A stretch of DNA of 11,685 bases, taken from assembly GCA_020200935.1 (NCBI GenBank), contig JAIVHR010000198.1:1-11685 (forward strand), written 5' to 3'. This document shows positions 1,186-7,074 of this stretch, one piece after another (the first letter of the stretch is position 1; every line of letters starts with the position of its first letter). The notes below the pieces were generated by a model, which saw only the letters and a list, made by a program, of their open reading frames with translations, did no database searches and had not been told where the DNA came from. The translations under genes were made by a program, and so were the position numbers. The DNA comes from Sphingomonadales bacterium. Lineage in GTDB: Bacteria; Pseudomonadota; Alphaproteobacteria; Sphingomonadales; Sphingomonadaceae.

Positions 1186-1902
1186 ATGCACCGGTTCGCC
1201 AATCCCACCCGTTTCCTGAAGGTCGCCCGGCCGCTGACGCCGTGGCTGTTCTGGGCCGGTCTGGCGATCGCCGGCTTCGCGCTCTTCGCCGGGCTGACGA
1301 TGACGCCGGCCGACTATCTGCAGGGCGAGAGCGTGCGCATCATGTATGTCCACGTGCCGGCCGCCTGGCTCGGCATGGCGGGCTGGAGCGCGATCCTCGT
1401 CGCCAGCGTCGTCCAGCTGGTTTGGCGGCATCCGCTGGCCGGGATCGCCGGGCGCGCGGTCGCCGCGCCGGGCGCGATGTTCACCGCGATCTGCCTCGTC
1501 ACCGGCTCGATTTGGGGGCGGCCGACCTGGGGCGCCTGGTGGGTCTGGGACGGGCGGCTGACCTCGATGCTGGTGCTGTTGTTTCTCTATTTCGCCTATA
1601 TCGCGCTCGCCGCGGCGAGCGAGGAGCGGGCGACGACGAGTCGGGCGGCGGCGATTTTCGGTGTGCTCGGCGCGATCAACCTGCCGATCATCCATTATTC
1701 GGTGACCTGGTGGAATTCGCTCCACCAGGCGCAGAGCATCACGCTGCAGGGCTCGACGATCGCCGGCAGCATCCTCTGGCCGCTGCCGATCGCGGTACTC
1801 GGTTTTTCGCTGATCTTCGCCGCCATCGTGCTGATGCGGATGCGCGGGTTGATCGCCGACATCCGGATCGAGGCGCGATTGAAGCGCCTGGCGGCGGCAT
1901 AG
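1186..1902 (+). CDS. ccmC: Haem exporter / haem-handling protein CcmC
   Basis: CcmC is the inner-membrane haem-handling protein of System I cytochrome c maturation; it binds haem at the periplasmic face and passes it to CcmE. The 238 residues form about six membrane helices. The tryptophan-rich WWD signature is clear at residues 110-124 (WGRPTWGAWWVWDGR). The two expected axial haem ligands are H56 (YVHVPAAW) and H170 (NLPIIHYSV), aligning by motif with H60 and H184 of E. coli CcmC. A further H180 lies in WWNSLHQ, as in relatives. Length and ends are normal. It is first in the ccm operon: ccmD begins ten bases after its stop, with the Shine-Dalgarno GGAGGGG overlapping the stop codon. The ABC components CcmA and CcmB that normally work with it are not next to it. 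Confidence 0.97.
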   Translation: MHRFANPTRFLKVARPLTPWLFWAGLAIAGFALFAGLTMTPADYLQGESVRIMYVHVPAAWLGMAGWSAILVASVVQLVWRHPLAGIAGRAVAAPGAMFTAICLVTGSIWGRPTWGAWWVWDGRLTSMLVLLFLYFAYIALAAASEERATTSRAAAIFGVLGAINLPIIHYSVTWWNSLHQAQSITLQGSTIAGSILWPLPIAVLGFSLIFAAIVLMRMRGLIADIRIEARLKRLAAA

Positions 1903-1912
1903 GAGGGGCGGC

Positions 1913-2050
1913 ATGGATCACTGGCCCTTCATCATCGCCGCCTATGCGCTGACCGTGCTCGGTACGCTCGGTCTCGCCGCCTGGAGCTTCGCGACGATGC
2001 GCGCGCGCGAACACAAGGCCGCGGCGTTGAGGCAGGAGCGCGGCGCATGA
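1913..2050 (+). CDS. ccmD: Haem exporter small subunit CcmD
   Basis: A 45-residue protein with one membrane helix (about residues 5-27, starting HWPFIIAAYALTVLG) and a basic cytoplasmic tail rich in Arg, Lys and Ala, the standard CcmD layout. CcmD joins CcmC and holo-CcmE and helps release haem-loaded CcmE from the CcmABCD complex. The HWPFIIAAY opening is typical of alphaproteobacterial CcmD. A good ribosome-binding site (AGGAGGGG, 1901-1908) sits five bases ahead of the ATG. Its stop overlaps the ccmE start (ATGA, 2047-2050), so translation of the two is probably coupled. The position between ccmC and ccmE confirms the call, which would be weaker from sequence alone. Confidence 0.93.
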   Translation: MDHWPFIIAAYALTVLGTLGLAAWSFATMRAREHKAAALRQERGA

Positions 2051-2478
2051 AGGCCAAGCATCAGCGGCTGACCCTCGCGCTGATCGCCATCGCCGCCGTG
2101 ATCGGCGCCGGCTTCCTGGCGCTCGCAGGGTTGCGCGACAATGCGGCGTTGTTCCGCACGCCCTCCGAACTCGCGCTTGAACCGGTACCGCCGGGGCAGA
2201 ACATCCGGCTCGGCGGCATGGTCGAGGACGGCTCGATTCGCCAGCTGCCCGACGGGATCACGATTACCTTCACCGTGGAAGACGGGGACGCCAGCGTACC
2301 GGTGCGTTTCTCGGGCATCACGCCCGATCTGTTCCAGGAAAATTCGGGCGTCGTCGCCGAGGGCGCCTTCGATCCGCGCGGCGTCTTCGTCGCCGACAAC
2401 ATCCTCGCCAAGCATGACGAGAATTACATGCCGCCGCCGCTCGAGGATATGGCGCAAGCGGACGATAGCGCCTCGTGA
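2047..2478 (+). CDS. ccmE: Periplasmic haem chaperone CcmE
   Basis: CcmE binds haem covalently in the periplasm and delivers it to CcmF for attachment to apocytochrome c. The 143-residue protein has a short basic N-terminus, one membrane anchor (about 8-29) and an OB-fold domain. The haem-attachment motif HDENY is at residues 123-127: H123 is the covalent ligand and Y127 the axial one by family knowledge. It is followed by the usual flexible acidic tail (MPPPLEDMAQ). An H-type motif (rather than the CXXXY variant) fits alphaproteobacterial CcmE. It overlaps ccmD at its start and ccmF at its end (GTGA, 2475-2478). Confidence 0.97.
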   Translation: MKAKHQRLTLALIAIAAVIGAGFLALAGLRDNAALFRTPSELALEPVPPGQNIRLGGMVEDGSIRQLPDGITITFTVEDGDASVPVRFSGITPDLFQENSGVVAEGAFDPRGVFVADNILAKHDENYMPPPLEDMAQADDSAS

Positions 2479-4397
2479 TCGCCGAGACCGGACTTGCCGC
2501 CCTGTGGCTGGCCGCAGCGCTCTGCGCGCTGCAGCTGGTGTTCGGTATCATGGCGCTGCGCAACGGCCGGGCCGATCTCGGCCGCGCCGTGCGGCCGGTG
2601 GCGATCGTCCAGGGCATCCTCACCGCGATCGCCTTCCTGATGCTGATCTGGCTGTTCCTGCGTACCGACCTTTCGGTCGAATTGGTCGCGCGCAACAGCC
2701 ATTCGGCCAAGCCCTGGCTCTACAAGTTCGCCGGGACCTGGGGAAATCACGAAGGCTCGATGCTGCTGTGGATCGCGGTGATGGCGATATCGGGGGCGCT
2801 GGTCGCGATCTTCGAGCGGCGCCTGAAGGAAAACACGCTGATCGCGACTTTGACCGCCCAGGCCGTCATCGGGCTCGGCTTCTACGCTTTTCTGCTCTTC
2901 GCCTCGAACCCTTTCGCCCGCCAGAGCCCGCCCGCGCCCGAAGGGCAGGGGCTCAACCCGCTGCTCCAGGATCCCGGTCTCGCCTTCCATCCGCCGACGC
3001 TTTATTTCGGCTATGTCGGGCTGTCGGTCGCCTTCTCCTTCGCCGTCGGCGCGCTCGTCACCCGCGATGTCGACGCGGTGTTCGCCCGCGCGATGCGGCC
3101 CTGGGTGCTCGGCAGCTGGATCTTCCTGACGCTCGGCATCGCGGCGGGCAGCTACTGGGCCTATTACGAACTCGGCTGGGGCGGCTGGTGGTTCTGGGAT
3201 CCGGTCGAGAATGCCTCGCTGATGCCGTGGCTCGCCGCCACCGCTTTGCTGCATTCGGCGACCGTGCTCGCGACGCGCGACAGCTTGCGCGCCTGGACGG
3301 TGATGCTCGCGGTGATCGCCTTTTCGATGTCGATGATCGGCACTTTCCTCGTCCGCTCGGGCATCCTGACCAGCGTCCATGCCTTCGCCGTCGATCCGCA
3401 GCGCGGCAGCTTCATCCTCGCGCTGCTGGTGCTCTATATCGGCGGCGCGCTGACTTTGTTCGGGTTGCGCGTGGGGACGGTGCGCGAAGGCGCGCAATTC
3501 GAGCCGGTCAGCCGCGAGGGCGCGCTGGTCGTCAACAACCTGCTGCTCTCGGCGATCCTCGGCATCGTGCTGGTCGGCACGCTCTATCCGCTGGCCGTCG
3601 AGGCGGTTAGCGGCAAGCAGCTGTCGATCGGCCCGCCTTATTTCAACGCCACCGCCGGGCCGCTGGCGCTGCTGCTGGTCGCCGCGATGGCGGCCGGCCC
3701 GTTGCTGCGTTGGCGGCGCGACGATTGGCGCAAGCTCGTTTCGCGTTTGTCGGTGCCGCTGTTGATGACGGCTCTGGCCCTGGCGGCGCTGGTGCTGTTC
3801 GCCAGCCCGATCGGCATCCTGCCGACGCTCGGACTGGTGCTCGCGGCCGGCATCGCCGCAGCCAGCCTGTCGCCGCTCTGGAAACGCAATCTGCGCCGTA
3901 CGCCGCTCTTCATCTACGGCATGGTGATCGCCCATTTCGGCGTCGGCGTGACGCTCGCCGGCATGGCCTTCGAGAGCGCCTTCACCGAGGAGGTGCTAGT
4001 CGCCTCGAGCCCGGGCGAAAGCCATGCGGTCGGCCCCTATACCGTCCGCTTCGACGGCACCGAGCCGATCGCGGGGCCCAACTGGACGGCGGTCGAAGCA
4101 AAACTGACGGTGGCGCGCGGCGATCGGGCGGCGCGCACTCTCCGCCCGCAATCGCGCATGTTCCCGACCCCCGAGACCGAAACCAGCGAGGCGGCGATCC
4201 TGACCTCGTGGGACGGGCAGCTCTATACCGTGCTTGGCAATGGCGGCGGCGGGCGCTGGCAATTGCGCTTGTGGTGGAAGCCCTTCGTCACGCTGATCTG
4301 GCTCGGCGGTGGGCTGATCGCGCTGGGCGGCTTGCTGGCCCTTATCGGCCGCGTGCGCCGCGAACGTCGGGCCATCGAACGCGAGCTATACGCATGA
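2475..4397 (+). CDS. ccmF: Cytochrome c haem lyase core subunit CcmF
   Basis: CcmF is the large membrane subunit of the System I haem lyase; it takes haem from CcmE and ligates it to CXXCH of apocytochrome c. The 640 residues have many membrane helices, the WWD domain at 234-246 (GWGGWWFWDPVEN), and a C-terminal periplasmic domain (about 495-600) before a last helix and a basic tail. Conserved histidines are all present: H172 (AFHPPTLY), H260 (LLHSATV), H302 (VHAFAVD) and H487 (VIAHFGVGV), matching H173, H261, H303 and H491 of E. coli CcmF by motif. The start is GTG at 2475, overlapping the ccmE stop; this gives the usual N-terminus one residue-pair before the first helix. It ends in an ATGA overlap with the thioredoxin-like gene. 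Confidence 0.97.
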   Translation: MIAETGLAALWLAAALCALQLVFGIMALRNGRADLGRAVRPVAIVQGILTAIAFLMLIWLFLRTDLSVELVARNSHSAKPWLYKFAGTWGNHEGSMLLWIAVMAISGALVAIFERRLKENTLIATLTAQAVIGLGFYAFLLFASNPFARQSPPAPEGQGLNPLLQDPGLAFHPPTLYFGYVGLSVAFSFAVGALVTRDVDAVFARAMRPWVLGSWIFLTLGIAAGSYWAYYELGWGGWWFWDPVENASLMPWLAATALLHSATVLATRDSLRAWTVMLAVIAFSMSMIGTFLVRSGILTSVHAFAVDPQRGSFILALLVLYIGGALTLFGLRVGTVREGAQFEPVSREGALVVNNLLLSAILGIVLVGTLYPLAVEAVSGKQLSIGPPYFNATAGPLALLLVAAMAAGPLLRWRRDDWRKLVSRLSVPLLMTALALAALVLFASPIGILPTLGLVLAAGIAAASLSPLWKRNLRRTPLFIYGMVIAHFGVGVTLAGMAFESAFTEEVLVASSPGESHAVGPYTVRFDGTEPIAGPNWTAVEAKLTVARGDRAARTLRPQSRMFPTPETETSEAAILTSWDGQLYTVLGNGGGGRWQLRLWWKPFVTLIWLGGGLIALGGLLALIGRVRRERRAIERELYA

Positions 4398-4981
4398 GCG
4401 AGACGCCGCCTCCTGCCGGAGATCCGACGATGGTCCACAAGCGGCGCTTGGTGCTCTGGGTGCCGTTGGCTTTCGCGCTGATCTTCTTCGGGATCTTCGC
4501 CTACACGCTCTATTTCGGCAATGATTCGCCGCAGCAGCGGGCGATCGAATCGCAGATGATCGGCGATCAGGTGCCGCCCTTCGCGCTCGAACCCGCGATC
4601 CCCGCCATGCCGGGACTCTCCTCAGCCGATCTCGCGCGCGGCGACGGGCCGCGGCTGGTCAACCTCTTCGCCAGCTGGTGCGTGCCCTGCATCGCCGAGG
4701 CGCCGCAGCTGATGCAGCTCGCCGAGGCCGGCGTGCCGATCGACGCGATCGCGATCCGCGACCGGCCCGAGGATGTCGCCGCCTTTCTCGGTCGCTGGGG
4801 CAATCCCTATCAGCGGATCGGCGCCGACGATGACAGCCGCGCGATGCTCGCCTTCGGCTCGTCGGGCGTCCCCGAAAGCTTCGTCGTCGATGCCGACGGC
4901 GTGATCACCCACCAGCATATCGGCGACATTCGCCCCGAGGACGTGCCGGCGATCCTCCAGGCGCTGGAGGAGGCGCGGTGA
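4394..4981 (+). CDS. ccmG: Thiol:disulfide interchange protein CcmG/DsbE
   Basis: A membrane-anchored periplasmic thioredoxin-like protein that keeps the cysteines of apocytochrome c (or of CcmH) reduced during maturation. The 195-residue product has one N-terminal helix (about 19-41) and a thioredoxin fold with the active site WCVPC (C96 and C99). The cis-proline loop is GVPES (158-162), the usual CcmG form being GxPE[ST]. The start at 4394 overlaps the ccmF stop (ATGA); the longer upstream open frame is only a shadow of ccmF. M13 is a possible second start and would keep the anchor intact. The 3' end overlaps the GTG of ccmH (GTGA, 4978-4981). The dsbE name is also used for this family. Confidence 0.95.
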   Translation: MSETPPPAGDPTMVHKRRLVLWVPLAFALIFFGIFAYTLYFGNDSPQQRAIESQMIGDQVPPFALEPAIPAMPGLSSADLARGDGPRLVNLFASWCVPCIAEAPQLMQLAEAGVPIDAIAIRDRPEDVAAFLGRWGNPYQRIGADDDSRAMLAFGSSGVPESFVVDADGVITHQHIGDIRPEDVPAILQALEEAR

Positions 4982-5478
4982 TTGCGGCAAAACCCCCGAT
5001 TCGTGTGCCTGCGAAGGCAGGAACCCAGGGTCGCCAGCGCCATCGCCCGATGCTCCGGGCTCCTGCTTTCGCAGGAGCACTGTTCTTCGCCGCAATCGGT
5101 GTCACCTCGCCTCTTCAAGCCCAGTCCCGCCTTCCCGAGGCCGAATGGGCGAACACGCAACTGCCCGACCCGGCACAGGAAGCCGAGGCGAGGGAATTGA
5201 TGGAATCGCTGCGCTGCCTCGTCTGCCAGGGTCAGTCGATCGCCGATTCGGACGCCGACATGGCGGCCGACATGCGGGCGATGGTGCGGCGCCGGATCGC
5301 CGCCGGCGAGGAGCCCGACGCGATCCGCGACTGGCTGATCGATCGCTATGGCCGCTGGATCACCTATGAGCCGCCCTTCGATGCGGTCACCTGGCCGCTC
5401 TGGCTGCTGCCGCTGCTTCTTCTCGGCGCCGGGCTCTGGCTCGCGCGGCGGCGTTTTCGGTTCGGGAAGAAGCGCTGA
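4978..5478 (+). CDS. ccmH: Cytochrome c maturation protein CcmH (CcmL-type), repeat in its signal-peptide region
   Basis: CcmH is the membrane-bound thiol oxidoreductase that acts on apocytochrome c with CcmG. The mature part has the LRCLVCQ motif (C80 and C83 counted from the GTG start), a three-helix region (SIADSDADMAADMRAMV onward) and a C-terminal membrane helix (about 138-156) with a basic end. This is the short CcmL-like form without a fused TPR domain. The GTG at 4978 overlaps the ccmG stop like every other junction in the operon, but gives a long basic n-region of 27 residues before the hydrophobic stretch APAFAGALFFAAIGV. An ATG at 5050 gives a compact 25-residue signal peptide ending PLQAQ. 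The N-terminal region between the two is encoded by a palindromic repeat (5005-5080), so the real start is uncertain. There is no clear ribosome-binding site ahead of 5050. Confidence 0.93.
   Translation: MIAAKPPIRVPAKAGTQGRQRHRPMLRAPAFAGALFFAAIGVTSPLQAQSRLPEAEWANTQLPDPAQEAEARELMESLRCLVCQGQSIADSDADMAADMRAMVRRRIAAGEEPDAIRDWLIDRYGRWITYEPPFDAVTWPLWLLPLLLLGAGLWLARRRFRFGKKR
5005..5080. repeat. Palindromic repeat embedded in the 5' end of ccmH
   Basis: Left arm 5005-5028 contains CCTGCGAAGGCAGGAACCCA. Right arm 5053-5080 contains CTCCTGCTTTCGCAGGAGCA. Their reverse complements agree except for a few bases (GCGAAGGC against GCGAAAGC, GAACCC against GAGCCC). Each arm also folds on itself (CCTGC/GCAGG). 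The type, with the core CCTGCGAAAGCAGGA, is one I remember as a dispersed repeat in sphingomonad genomes. Here it has no stop codon in the ccmH frame and encodes part of the leader (VPAKAGTQ... on the left arm, MLRAPAFAGAL on the right). Confidence 0.8.
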
Positions 5479-5865
5479 TGGGCTGGATCGCCGCGCTCCT
5501 GCTTATCGCGCTCGTGCTGTTCTGGCTCTGGCGGTTGGCCGGGTTCCGCGCGGCGCGTTCGAAGGCAAGGTTGGCGGCCGGGTTCATCCGTCCCTCGCCA
5601 TGAAGCAGCAGCGCGTTGCCGAGCCCCACCCAGAGATCGGGATTGTTCGGCTCGGCATCGAGAGCATTCCCAGGCGGGGCGGCTCGACGAGGCCGAGCAG
5701 ACCTGGTCCGATCTCCTCGCCCGTACGCCCGAGGACGCTCCCTACCGCGCCGATCTCGCGCTTCGGCTCGCCGATGTCCGGCGCGCGCTGGGGATGCCGG
5801 CGGAGGGGGGCGGGCAAGTGGAAGAGACGGCTGCCGAACAGGAGCTCGAGAGCCCTCTCCCATAG
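5478..5865 (+). pseudogene. ccmI/nrfG-type TPR gene disrupted by an internal inversion
   Basis: This is the expected last gene of the operon, a membrane-anchored TPR protein that binds the C-terminus of apocytochrome c. The ATG overlaps the ccmH stop (TGATG, 5476-5480). The first part reads MGWIAALLLIALVLFWLWRL, a normal single-helix N-terminus, but the frame stops at 5601-5603 after 41 codons. From 5671, in another frame, the plus strand reads QAGRLDEAEQTWSDLLARTP and continues to RADLALRLADVRRALG, the usual C-terminal TPR end of this family, stopping at TAG 5863-5865. Between them a TPR segment lies on the minus strand (about 5546-5668). Intact relatives are about 200 residues, so sequence is also missing: the second N-terminal helix and linker, and about 17 residues before QAGRL. 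A 41-residue one-helix peptide could still be made. Confidence 0.85.
5546..5668 (-). other. Inverted fragment of the ccmI-type gene
   Basis: Read on the minus strand, codons from about 5665 down to 5546 give ALDAEPNNPDLWVGLGNALL, then LHGEGRMNPAANLAFERAAR. This is the classic TPR motif of CcmI/NrfG proteins, which would normally come before the plus-strand piece QAGRLDEAEQ. Outside these limits the minus frame turns into Arg/Ser-rich nonsense. No start codon or ribosome-binding site is suitably placed, so it is a displaced gene piece and not a separate gene. Exact breakpoints lie within roughly 5538-5556 and 5664-5671. I see no convincing long inverted repeat at the ends. Confidence 0.85.
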
Positions 5866-5976
5866 GGAGAGGGTTGGGTGAGGGGTTCGGACCTATCGAG
5901 AGCGCGGAACCCCTCATCCAACTCCGCCTAGCGAGCAAGCTCGCAAGTCTCCGTATCCTTCTCCCCCTGGGAGAAG
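5853..5976. repeat. Composite palindromic repeat between ψccmI and ald
   Basis: Three nested dyads fill the gap between converging genes. A perfect 9-bp hairpin lies at 5853-5861/5865-5873 (CCCTCTCCC, loop ATA). A pair of 16-base arms at 5873-5888 and 5907-5922 are complementary at 15 positions (GTTGGGTGAGGGGTTC). A perfect 8-bp hairpin lies at 5958-5965/5969-5976 (CTTCTCCC, loop CCT). The unit resembles the GGGAGAGGGTTGGGTGAGGGG dispersed repeats known from many proteobacterial genomes. The first hairpin contains the TAG that ends the ψccmI C-terminal frame, and the last one starts four bases beyond the ald stop. The hairpins could serve as transcript 3' ends for both sides, though there is no T-tract. 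Confidence 0.8.
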
Positions 5977-5979
5977 AAA

Positions 5980-7074
5980 TCAGTTCAGAGGCAGATCGAG
6001 CGCTTCGGCGACGGCTTCGTGACGGATCTTGCCGTCGGACACGTTGAGGCCGCCGGCGAGATGCTCATTGTCGGCCAGTGCCTGGTCGACGCCCTTGTTC
6101 GCGAGTTGCAGCACATAGGGCAAGGTCGCGTTGTTGAGCGCGAAGGTCGAGGTGCGCGCGACGGCGCCCGGCATGTTGGCGACGCAATAATGGATGATGC
6201 CTTCCTCGACATAGACCGGATCGTCATGCGTCGTCGCCCGCGAAGTTTCGAAACAGCCGCCCTGGTCGATCGCGATGTCGACGACGACCGATCCGCGCTT
6301 CATCGTCTTCAGCATCTCGCGGGTGACGAGCTTGGGCGCCGCCGCGCCGGGCACCAGCACCGCGCCGATCACCAGATGCGCGGCCTTCACCGCATCGCCG
6401 ATCGCCGCCTGCGAGGCGTAGCCGGTCTTGATCTTGTTGCCGAAATGGGTGTCGAGCATCGCCAGGCGATCGTTCGAAATGTCGTAGATCGTGACGTCGG
6501 CACGCAGGCCGACCGCCATCTGCGCCGCGTTCAGCCCGGCGACGCCGCCGCCGATGATGACGACCTTGCCCGGCGGCACACCCGGCACGCCGCCGAGCAG
6601 GATGCCGCGTCCGCCCGGCTCCTTTTCGAGATAGTGCGCGCCGGCCTGAACCGACATGCGACCCGCGACCTCGCTCATCGGCATCAGCAGCGGCAGCGAA
6701 CGATTGGGCGAGGTCACCGTCTCATAGGCGATCGCCGTGGCGCCCGAGGCCATCAGCCCCTCGGCCTGCGGCTTGTCGGCGGCGAGATGGAGATAGGTGA
6801 AGAGGATGTGGCGGTCCTCGAGCAGTGCGATCTCCTGCTGCTGCGGTTCCTTGACCTTCACGATCATGTCGGACCGGGCGAAGACGTCGGGCGCCGTATC
6901 GACGATCGTCGCGCCGACGCGGCGGTAGGCATCGTCGGAAAAGTCGATTCCCGATCCGGCCTGCGTCTCGACGATGACCTCATGGCCGTTCTGGATGACA
7001 TCGAACGCCGAATCGGGGGTCAGCCCGACGCGATATTCGTGATTCTTGATTTCCTTGGGAACGCCGACGCGCAT
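5980..7074 (-). CDS. ald: Alanine dehydrogenase
   Basis: This cytoplasmic enzyme interconverts L-alanine and pyruvate plus ammonia with NAD. The 364-residue product starts [20 protein letters not shown], the family hallmark. Catalytic and binding residues are present: R15, K75 (KVKEPQ), H96 (YLHLAAD) and D270 (VDIAIDQGG), equal to the numbering of the Mycobacterium enzyme. The nucleotide-binding loop GGGVAG is at 175-180 and the ribose-binding aspartate is D198 (TIYDIS). Family length is about 370. The start at 7074 is supported by a strong Shine-Dalgarno AGGAGG (complement of 7080-7085) five bases upstream; the open frame continuing to 7377 is non-coding leader and kup antisense. The gene is divergent from kup and convergent with ψccmI. 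No Lrp-type regulator gene, often seen next to ald, is present here. Confidence 0.97.

Follow-up and report, generated by a model that had tools for sequence, protein, structure and literature searches.

A ccmI-like gene in three pieces in a putative Parasphingopyxis draft genome, probably scrambled by a local assembly error

CcmI is a TPR protein that presumably brings apocytochrome c together with the haem lyase, and NrfG is a paralogue of CcmI and of the C-terminal domain of CcmH, as described in the available part of PMC3601427. Local assembly errors occur in metagenome-assembled genomes, where they are recognised by the absence of perfect read support, and the authors suspect IDBA-UD of showing them to an especially marked degree (PMC7111523, available portion). 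Chimeras formed during MDA carry inverted sequence with an intervening deletion and a priming homology of 2-21 nt, according to the accessible text of PMC1855051. In yeast, template switches from one short inverted repeat to the other, inverting the spacer, are documented (PMC8604942, in its available part). Micro-inversions flanked by inverted repeats have been found between human and chimpanzee, and for many of these the authors doubt template switching and propose break-induced replication (PMC8755829, in the part accessible).

Here we analysed a stretch of 11,685 bp (the window), which is the entire contig C267 of a 2.1 Mb draft genome (G000; 343 contigs, 66% complete) that we infer to belong to the genus Parasphingopyxis. 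A sequence-only reading of the window had proposed that a ccmI-type gene was broken into three pieces by an internal inversion, and had named assembly error as an alternative to a mutation in the strain. We show below that the three pieces are real parts of one gene, and that their order is most probably a metagenome assembly artefact, a local misjoin, the organism itself carrying an intact ccmI gene. We put the probability of this account at about 0.75.

A ccmI-like gene in three pieces downstream of ccmH

The operon upstream had been read as intact, and we found ccmC to ccmH in order, with ccmC to ccmG all open (Table 1). The stretch beginning at 5478 directly follows ccmC-D-E-F-G-H, and in this gene order after ccmH the window resembles the loci of CcmI and of the C-terminal domain of CcmH, which in System I provide the haem lyase with its TPR subunit. 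Intact relatives of the gene share with CcmI their N-terminal hydrophobic segments, judged by eye, and their TPR repeats (TPR_19 above cut-off). In three of them TPR_CcmH_CycH scored 27-35 bits against a cut-off of 42, and an NCBIfam scan of the intact relatives gave no CcmI-named match, only TPR families far below their cut-offs. We use the name CcmI because of the position after ccmH, the TPR repeats and the sub-threshold TPR_CcmH_CycH match in intact relatives. The intact protein would combine a TPR domain with two hydrophobic segments (by eye) and, going by the literature on the family, would help to present apocytochrome c to the haem lyase. Unlike CcmI, the intact relatives are of small size, with 218-226 aa in eight members of the genus, and the copy in the window lies in three pieces; after ccmH, the window does not offer one open frame in which membrane segments are followed by TPR repeats.

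Table 1. Coordinates of the ccm genes and of the pieces and junctions of the ccmI-like gene in the window
Feature	Position	Strand	Evidence or remark
ccmC, ccmD, ccmE, ccmF, ccmG, in order	1186..4981	+	all open, 5' of ccmH
ccmH	4978..5478	+	directly 5' of the ccmI-like stretch; PF03918 E 6.5e-38
Piece A, gene start, codons 1 to about 27	5478..5558	+	A1 profile and DNA match to eight relatives
CCGCGCGGCGCG, common to pieces A and B, first junction	5546..5557	.	overlap of forward and reverse matches
Piece B, central TPR, 41 codons, inverted	5546..5668	-	equals P0001 residues 79-119; opposite-strand DNA match in eight genus relatives
Second junction, B/C	5669..5670	.	at most 2 bp of possible microhomology; relatives' alignments and P0001 flanking residues
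Piece C, the C-terminal TPR with its tail (64 codons, then stop)	5671..5865	+	equals P0001 residues 137-200

A profile built from 12 intact CcmI-like proteins (A1) was run on the draft genome. It matched piece A at 5478-5582 on the plus strand (model 1-34, E 6.7e-6), piece B at 5546-5668 on the minus strand (model 106-146, E 9.2e-18) and piece C at 5668-5820 on the plus strand (model 163-213, E 3.2e-14). Comparison at the DNA level took in eight relatives from the genus, without G006. In all eight, the forward match to piece A spanned gene nt 1 to nt 62-80 and piece B matched in reverse, from nt 314-343 to nt 434-455. Piece C matched forward in 7/8 at the threshold used, L047 being the exception, and the match began at nt 490 in five relatives and at nt 501 and 541 in two. 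Profile and DNA thus agree on order and strands, close to where the sequence-only reading had placed the three pieces, and the contig runs from piece A through the reverse complement of piece B to piece C. Piece A holds the first hydrophobic helix, judged by eye; its frame stays open until a stop at 5601-5603, which gives 41 residues from 5478. The frame of piece C differs from that of piece A, (5671-5478) mod 3 being 1, as had been noticed from the letters.

The inversion of the middle and the loss of sequence at both of its ends were also borne out. About 79 codons are lost at the A to B junction (78 of the recorded protein P0001 described below and about one before it), or about 237 bp, and 17 codons (LDPTHPGPPFFFGLALA), or 51 bp, are lost at the B to C junction. 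As judged from protein and relatives, the putative repeat or microhomology at the two junctions would come to at least 12 bp at the first and 0-2 bp at the second. CCGCGCGGCGCG occurs once in the window, and its reverse complement is absent elsewhere in it; in the intact gene, the first junction would lie inside an inverted repeat of at least 12 bp.

That the minus-strand piece is neither TPR nor CcmI, its likeness arising by chance, might be argued from the domain libraries. In Pfam, the minus-strand ORF of piece B gave TPR_17 at E 0.0051 and the plus-strand ORF of piece C gave TPR_19 at E 0.026, both below the gathering score; TPR_CcmH_CycH had no match in the ORFs of the window, and an NCBIfam scan of its frames gave none. 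We regard chance resemblance as refuted for practical purposes, since all 41 residues of piece B equal those of P0001 and the A1 profile finds the TPR/CcmI similarity on the minus strand at the E value given above, a similarity whose absence the sequence-only reading had itself held to be fatal. It is this comparison with relatives, and not Pfam, that supplies the evidence for the identity of the pieces. Among the best 60 of 79 solved structures matching the A1 profile we saw TPR proteins, many of them designed, and nothing specific.

Intact genes in relatives and an intact copy on record

Relatives do not share the arrangement of the window. The ccmI-like gene reads in one frame in all nine other genomes of the genus: in eight it follows ccmH as a gene of 218-226 codons, and G006, the ninth, has its ccmH divided between two contigs, one of which carries the gene. 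The scan with the A1 profile covered the window together with 80 named loci and 29 from relatives, 110 sources in all, with some genomes in both sets. Only the window had matches above 20 bits on both strands. A match covering more than 75% of the model was present at 67 of the 80 named loci and at 27 of the 29 relatives' loci. The other two of the latter were L051, with two partial matches on one strand, and L068, which has none and ends at a contig end; the other 13 named loci comprised 12 without a match near ccmH, scanned over up to 4 kb on each side, and one (L136) cut by a contig end.

Fixed loss of CcmI in the lineage, with cytochrome c maturation going on without it, would agree with E. 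coli, where the C-terminal part of CcmH that corresponds to CcmI is dispensable, whereas CcmI is not dispensable in R. capsulatus (both from the available part of PMC3601427). Natural loss in relatives seemed to be suggested by the 12 of 80 loci, and was dropped when all 12 of these Sphingomonas-type genomes, searched together with two gene-bearing genomes as controls, proved to have a full-length A1 match elsewhere. In one (G066) the best match contains a stop and a second match in the same genome does not. Because all 12 carry such a match, either the operon is split in them or the ccmH concerned is a second copy. The loci in which ccmI does not come after ccmH are L080, L091, L108, L111, L113, L115, L117, L118, L126, L137, L142 and L144; at nine of the 12, the frame after ccmH is one that we take, by eye, to be GST-like, luciferase-like or P450-like.

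A second copy elsewhere in the genome, which had been put forward as one way out for the strain, was not found in the 66%-complete draft with either the A1 profile or P0001 as query, and this much speaks for fixed loss. The next A1 match was an unconvincing one in a 562-aa frame on C289 (E 5.7e-6). The P0001 query returned pieces B and C and weak matches on C289, C70 and C166; piece A was not returned because P0001 lacks the first piece.

An intact copy is nonetheless on record. When the minus-strand frame 5387-5938 was taken as a protein query, with 7988 candidates scored, 74 proteins were found, and the best of these, P0001, was the only one with 100% identity over piece B. This is a protein of 200 aa recorded as 'MAG: tetratricopeptide repeat protein, partial [Parasphingopyxis sp.]' (ncbi) on a contig of 6423 bp. 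It agrees with the window in 41/41 residues of piece B and 64/64 of piece C, including the tail EQELESPLP, and the absence of any amino-acid difference in these 41 + 64 residues accords with the recency that had been read from the clean codons of the displaced piece. P0001 opens with EWLG, and the full-length relative P0002 reads FRAARLEWLG, from which P0001 starts at codon 29, two codons beyond the last one supplied in full by piece A. Its start is therefore the first breakpoint, piece A ending at codon 27 or 28.

The size of the P0001 contig can be recovered from the window: 3 x 201 + (11685 - 5865) = 603 + 5820 = 6423, exactly the recorded length, if the first codon of P0001 is the first base of its contig and the contig ends on the last base of the window. 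Among the 40 of 112 candidates scored, the last 200 bases of the window matched only themselves in their own genome. As independent assemblies would rarely end on the same base within a unique gene, we infer that the P0001 record and the window are assemblies of the same reads, on the strength of one length coincidence and of identity at the protein level. The CcmH protein of the window, P0075, is recorded on two contigs, the longest of 11685 bp, as expected if a second assembly exists; this fits, and is not proof. From the 105/105 identical residues and the contig size, P0001 would likewise come from the same organism as the window. With an intact copy on record, apparently from the same species and probably from the same reads, and with full-length matches in 12/12 genomes that lack the gene beside ccmH, fixed loss becomes highly improbable, and the proposal of a strain using its haem lyase without CcmI is not upheld. 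Neither the absence of CcmI nor a CcmI-free haem lyase should be inferred from C267.

Misassembly and template switching compared

P0001 crosses the second junction and each end of piece B without interruption, so the rearranged order caused no break at these points in that assembly. Two true alleles should branch the assembly graph at the ends of piece B as well as at the second junction, and P0001 stops at the first junction only; it is on this ground that an artefact is favoured. The pattern of P0001 resembles a loss of support at a single GC-rich repeat, not the presence of two alleles. We therefore find assembly error, the alternative held in reserve by the sequence-only reading, to be the best-supported account. 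As proposed here, two assemblies were made from the same reads, and one of the two assemblies erred locally at a short inverted repeat of at least 12 bp. The assembly would lose support just after gene nt 80, at the GC-rich inverted repeat, continue the wrong way through the other repeat arm, and re-enter the gene at a point 51 bp past the inverted piece. Such a local misjoin was perhaps seeded by chimeric reads.

With the local assembly errors of PMC7111523, as the available text describes them, the locus shares a local scramble, a fragmented draft with N runs and an alternative record that disagrees; P0001, apparently from the same organism, shows a different and conserved order. An exact end overlap of 119 bp joins two contigs of the draft among 38 complete contigs compared (the window and 37 others, of which one is all N). 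In five of 41 sequences there is a single run of 39-106 N, and a sixth, L164, is all N. The overlap and the N runs are features of a scaffolded de Bruijn assembly; the assembler is a guess, and the short N runs might also be masked stretches. An overlap misjoin of contig tips was considered as the whole cause and rejected, as it fits the first junction (at least 12 bp) and not the second (0-2 bp).

Against an artefact counts the scarcity of like errors: no inversion other than that of the window was found in about 112 kb of contigs of the draft aligned to the relative G001, which suggests that the assembly is not generally prone to them. This comparison took 40 of the 343 contigs, three of them cut at 20 kb, against 1.6 Mb of the 3.67 Mb of G001; 20 aligned and 20 had no match, and contigs with counterparts in the other 56% of G001 were not judged. 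Two opposite-strand matches (L181, L196) were dispersed repeats. We also rejected a single-cell MDA chimera as the main cause. MDA chimeras, in the accessible text of PMC1855051, have the same anatomy as the window, but the MAG label of P0001 and the lack of a second event in about 112 kb oppose amplified single-cell DNA.

The same freedom from further inversions suits a real and very recent mutation in one strain, which would have destroyed ccmI in part of the population. During replication, a nascent strand would have departed from its template at the inverted repeat, used the opposite strand as template for 123 bp in the backward direction, and come back to its own 51 bp farther along. The putative repeat of at least 12 bp at the first junction, the 0-2 bp at the second, the single inverted segment and the loss on each side of it are what one template-switch event would leave, and the yeast precedent lends it support. 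The window shares with the micro-inversions at short inverted repeats in the available parts of PMC8604942 and PMC8755829 an inverted segment, one junction of which lies in a putative short inverted repeat. It differs in size, at 123 bp against 17-33 nt in PMC8755829, in the loss of about 237 and 51 bp, and in having almost no homology at the second junction. A mixed population should moreover show branching, whereas P0001 runs unbroken past the second junction and past each end of piece B, and the gene is in one frame in 9/9 other genomes of the genus. Such a mutation is thus unlikely, although it deserves to be kept in view. Just as doubtful is its fuller form, in which a one-step switch at an inverted repeat in an environmental Parasphingopyxis inverted 123 bp and deleted about 237 + 51 bp, and intact and scrambled alleles coexist, showing System I without its TPR subunit.

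If the scramble were true, the 41-residue membrane peptide from 5478 would be the only product read, and the locus would present an unusually clean bacterial template-switch micro-inversion together with a natural ccmI null. A search for a protein on record with the scrambled order, using this 41-residue frame, found nothing: none of the candidates had three words in common with it. With misassembly as the preferred account, the locus serves mainly as a warning: the striking disruption of this gene, seen in a draft genome from a metagenome, is contradicted by another record seemingly from the same reads.

Neighbouring genes and dispersed repeats

After the scrambled ccmI stretch comes an alanine dehydrogenase gene on the opposite strand, followed farther along the window by potassium transporter, MobA-like, 2'-5' RNA ligase-like and DUF3775 genes and by tRNA-Met. 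Of the last gene the window holds the start only; it matches Pyr_redox_2 in Pfam, and we take it to be thioredoxin reductase-like.

A possible ATG start of ccmH lies at 5050, as in P0075. Between ccmG and ccmH, at 5002-5080, there is a dispersed palindromic repeat with many copies in the genome, which reads in frame into the N-terminus of CcmH (MLRAPAFAGAL...), and part of the CcmH signal peptide may perhaps be supplied by it. The distance from ccmG to the CcmH core, measurable in 4/9 sources, is 153 bp in the window, 153 bp in G007, 69 bp in G001 and 177 bp in G004, and the reading of G007 at this repeat resembles that of the window. A second dispersed repeat (5849-5985) lies directly 3' of ccmI and overlaps the 3' end of the gene, whose final residues (ESPLP) and stop codon it contains, likewise in P0001; the first part of the repeat matches 21 other places in the genome, and further places match the rest, among the matches listed. 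A third dispersed repeat is present at 100-185, and for the first 200 bases of the window the genome gives 68 matches, a figure that includes the self-match and counts many places once on each strand.
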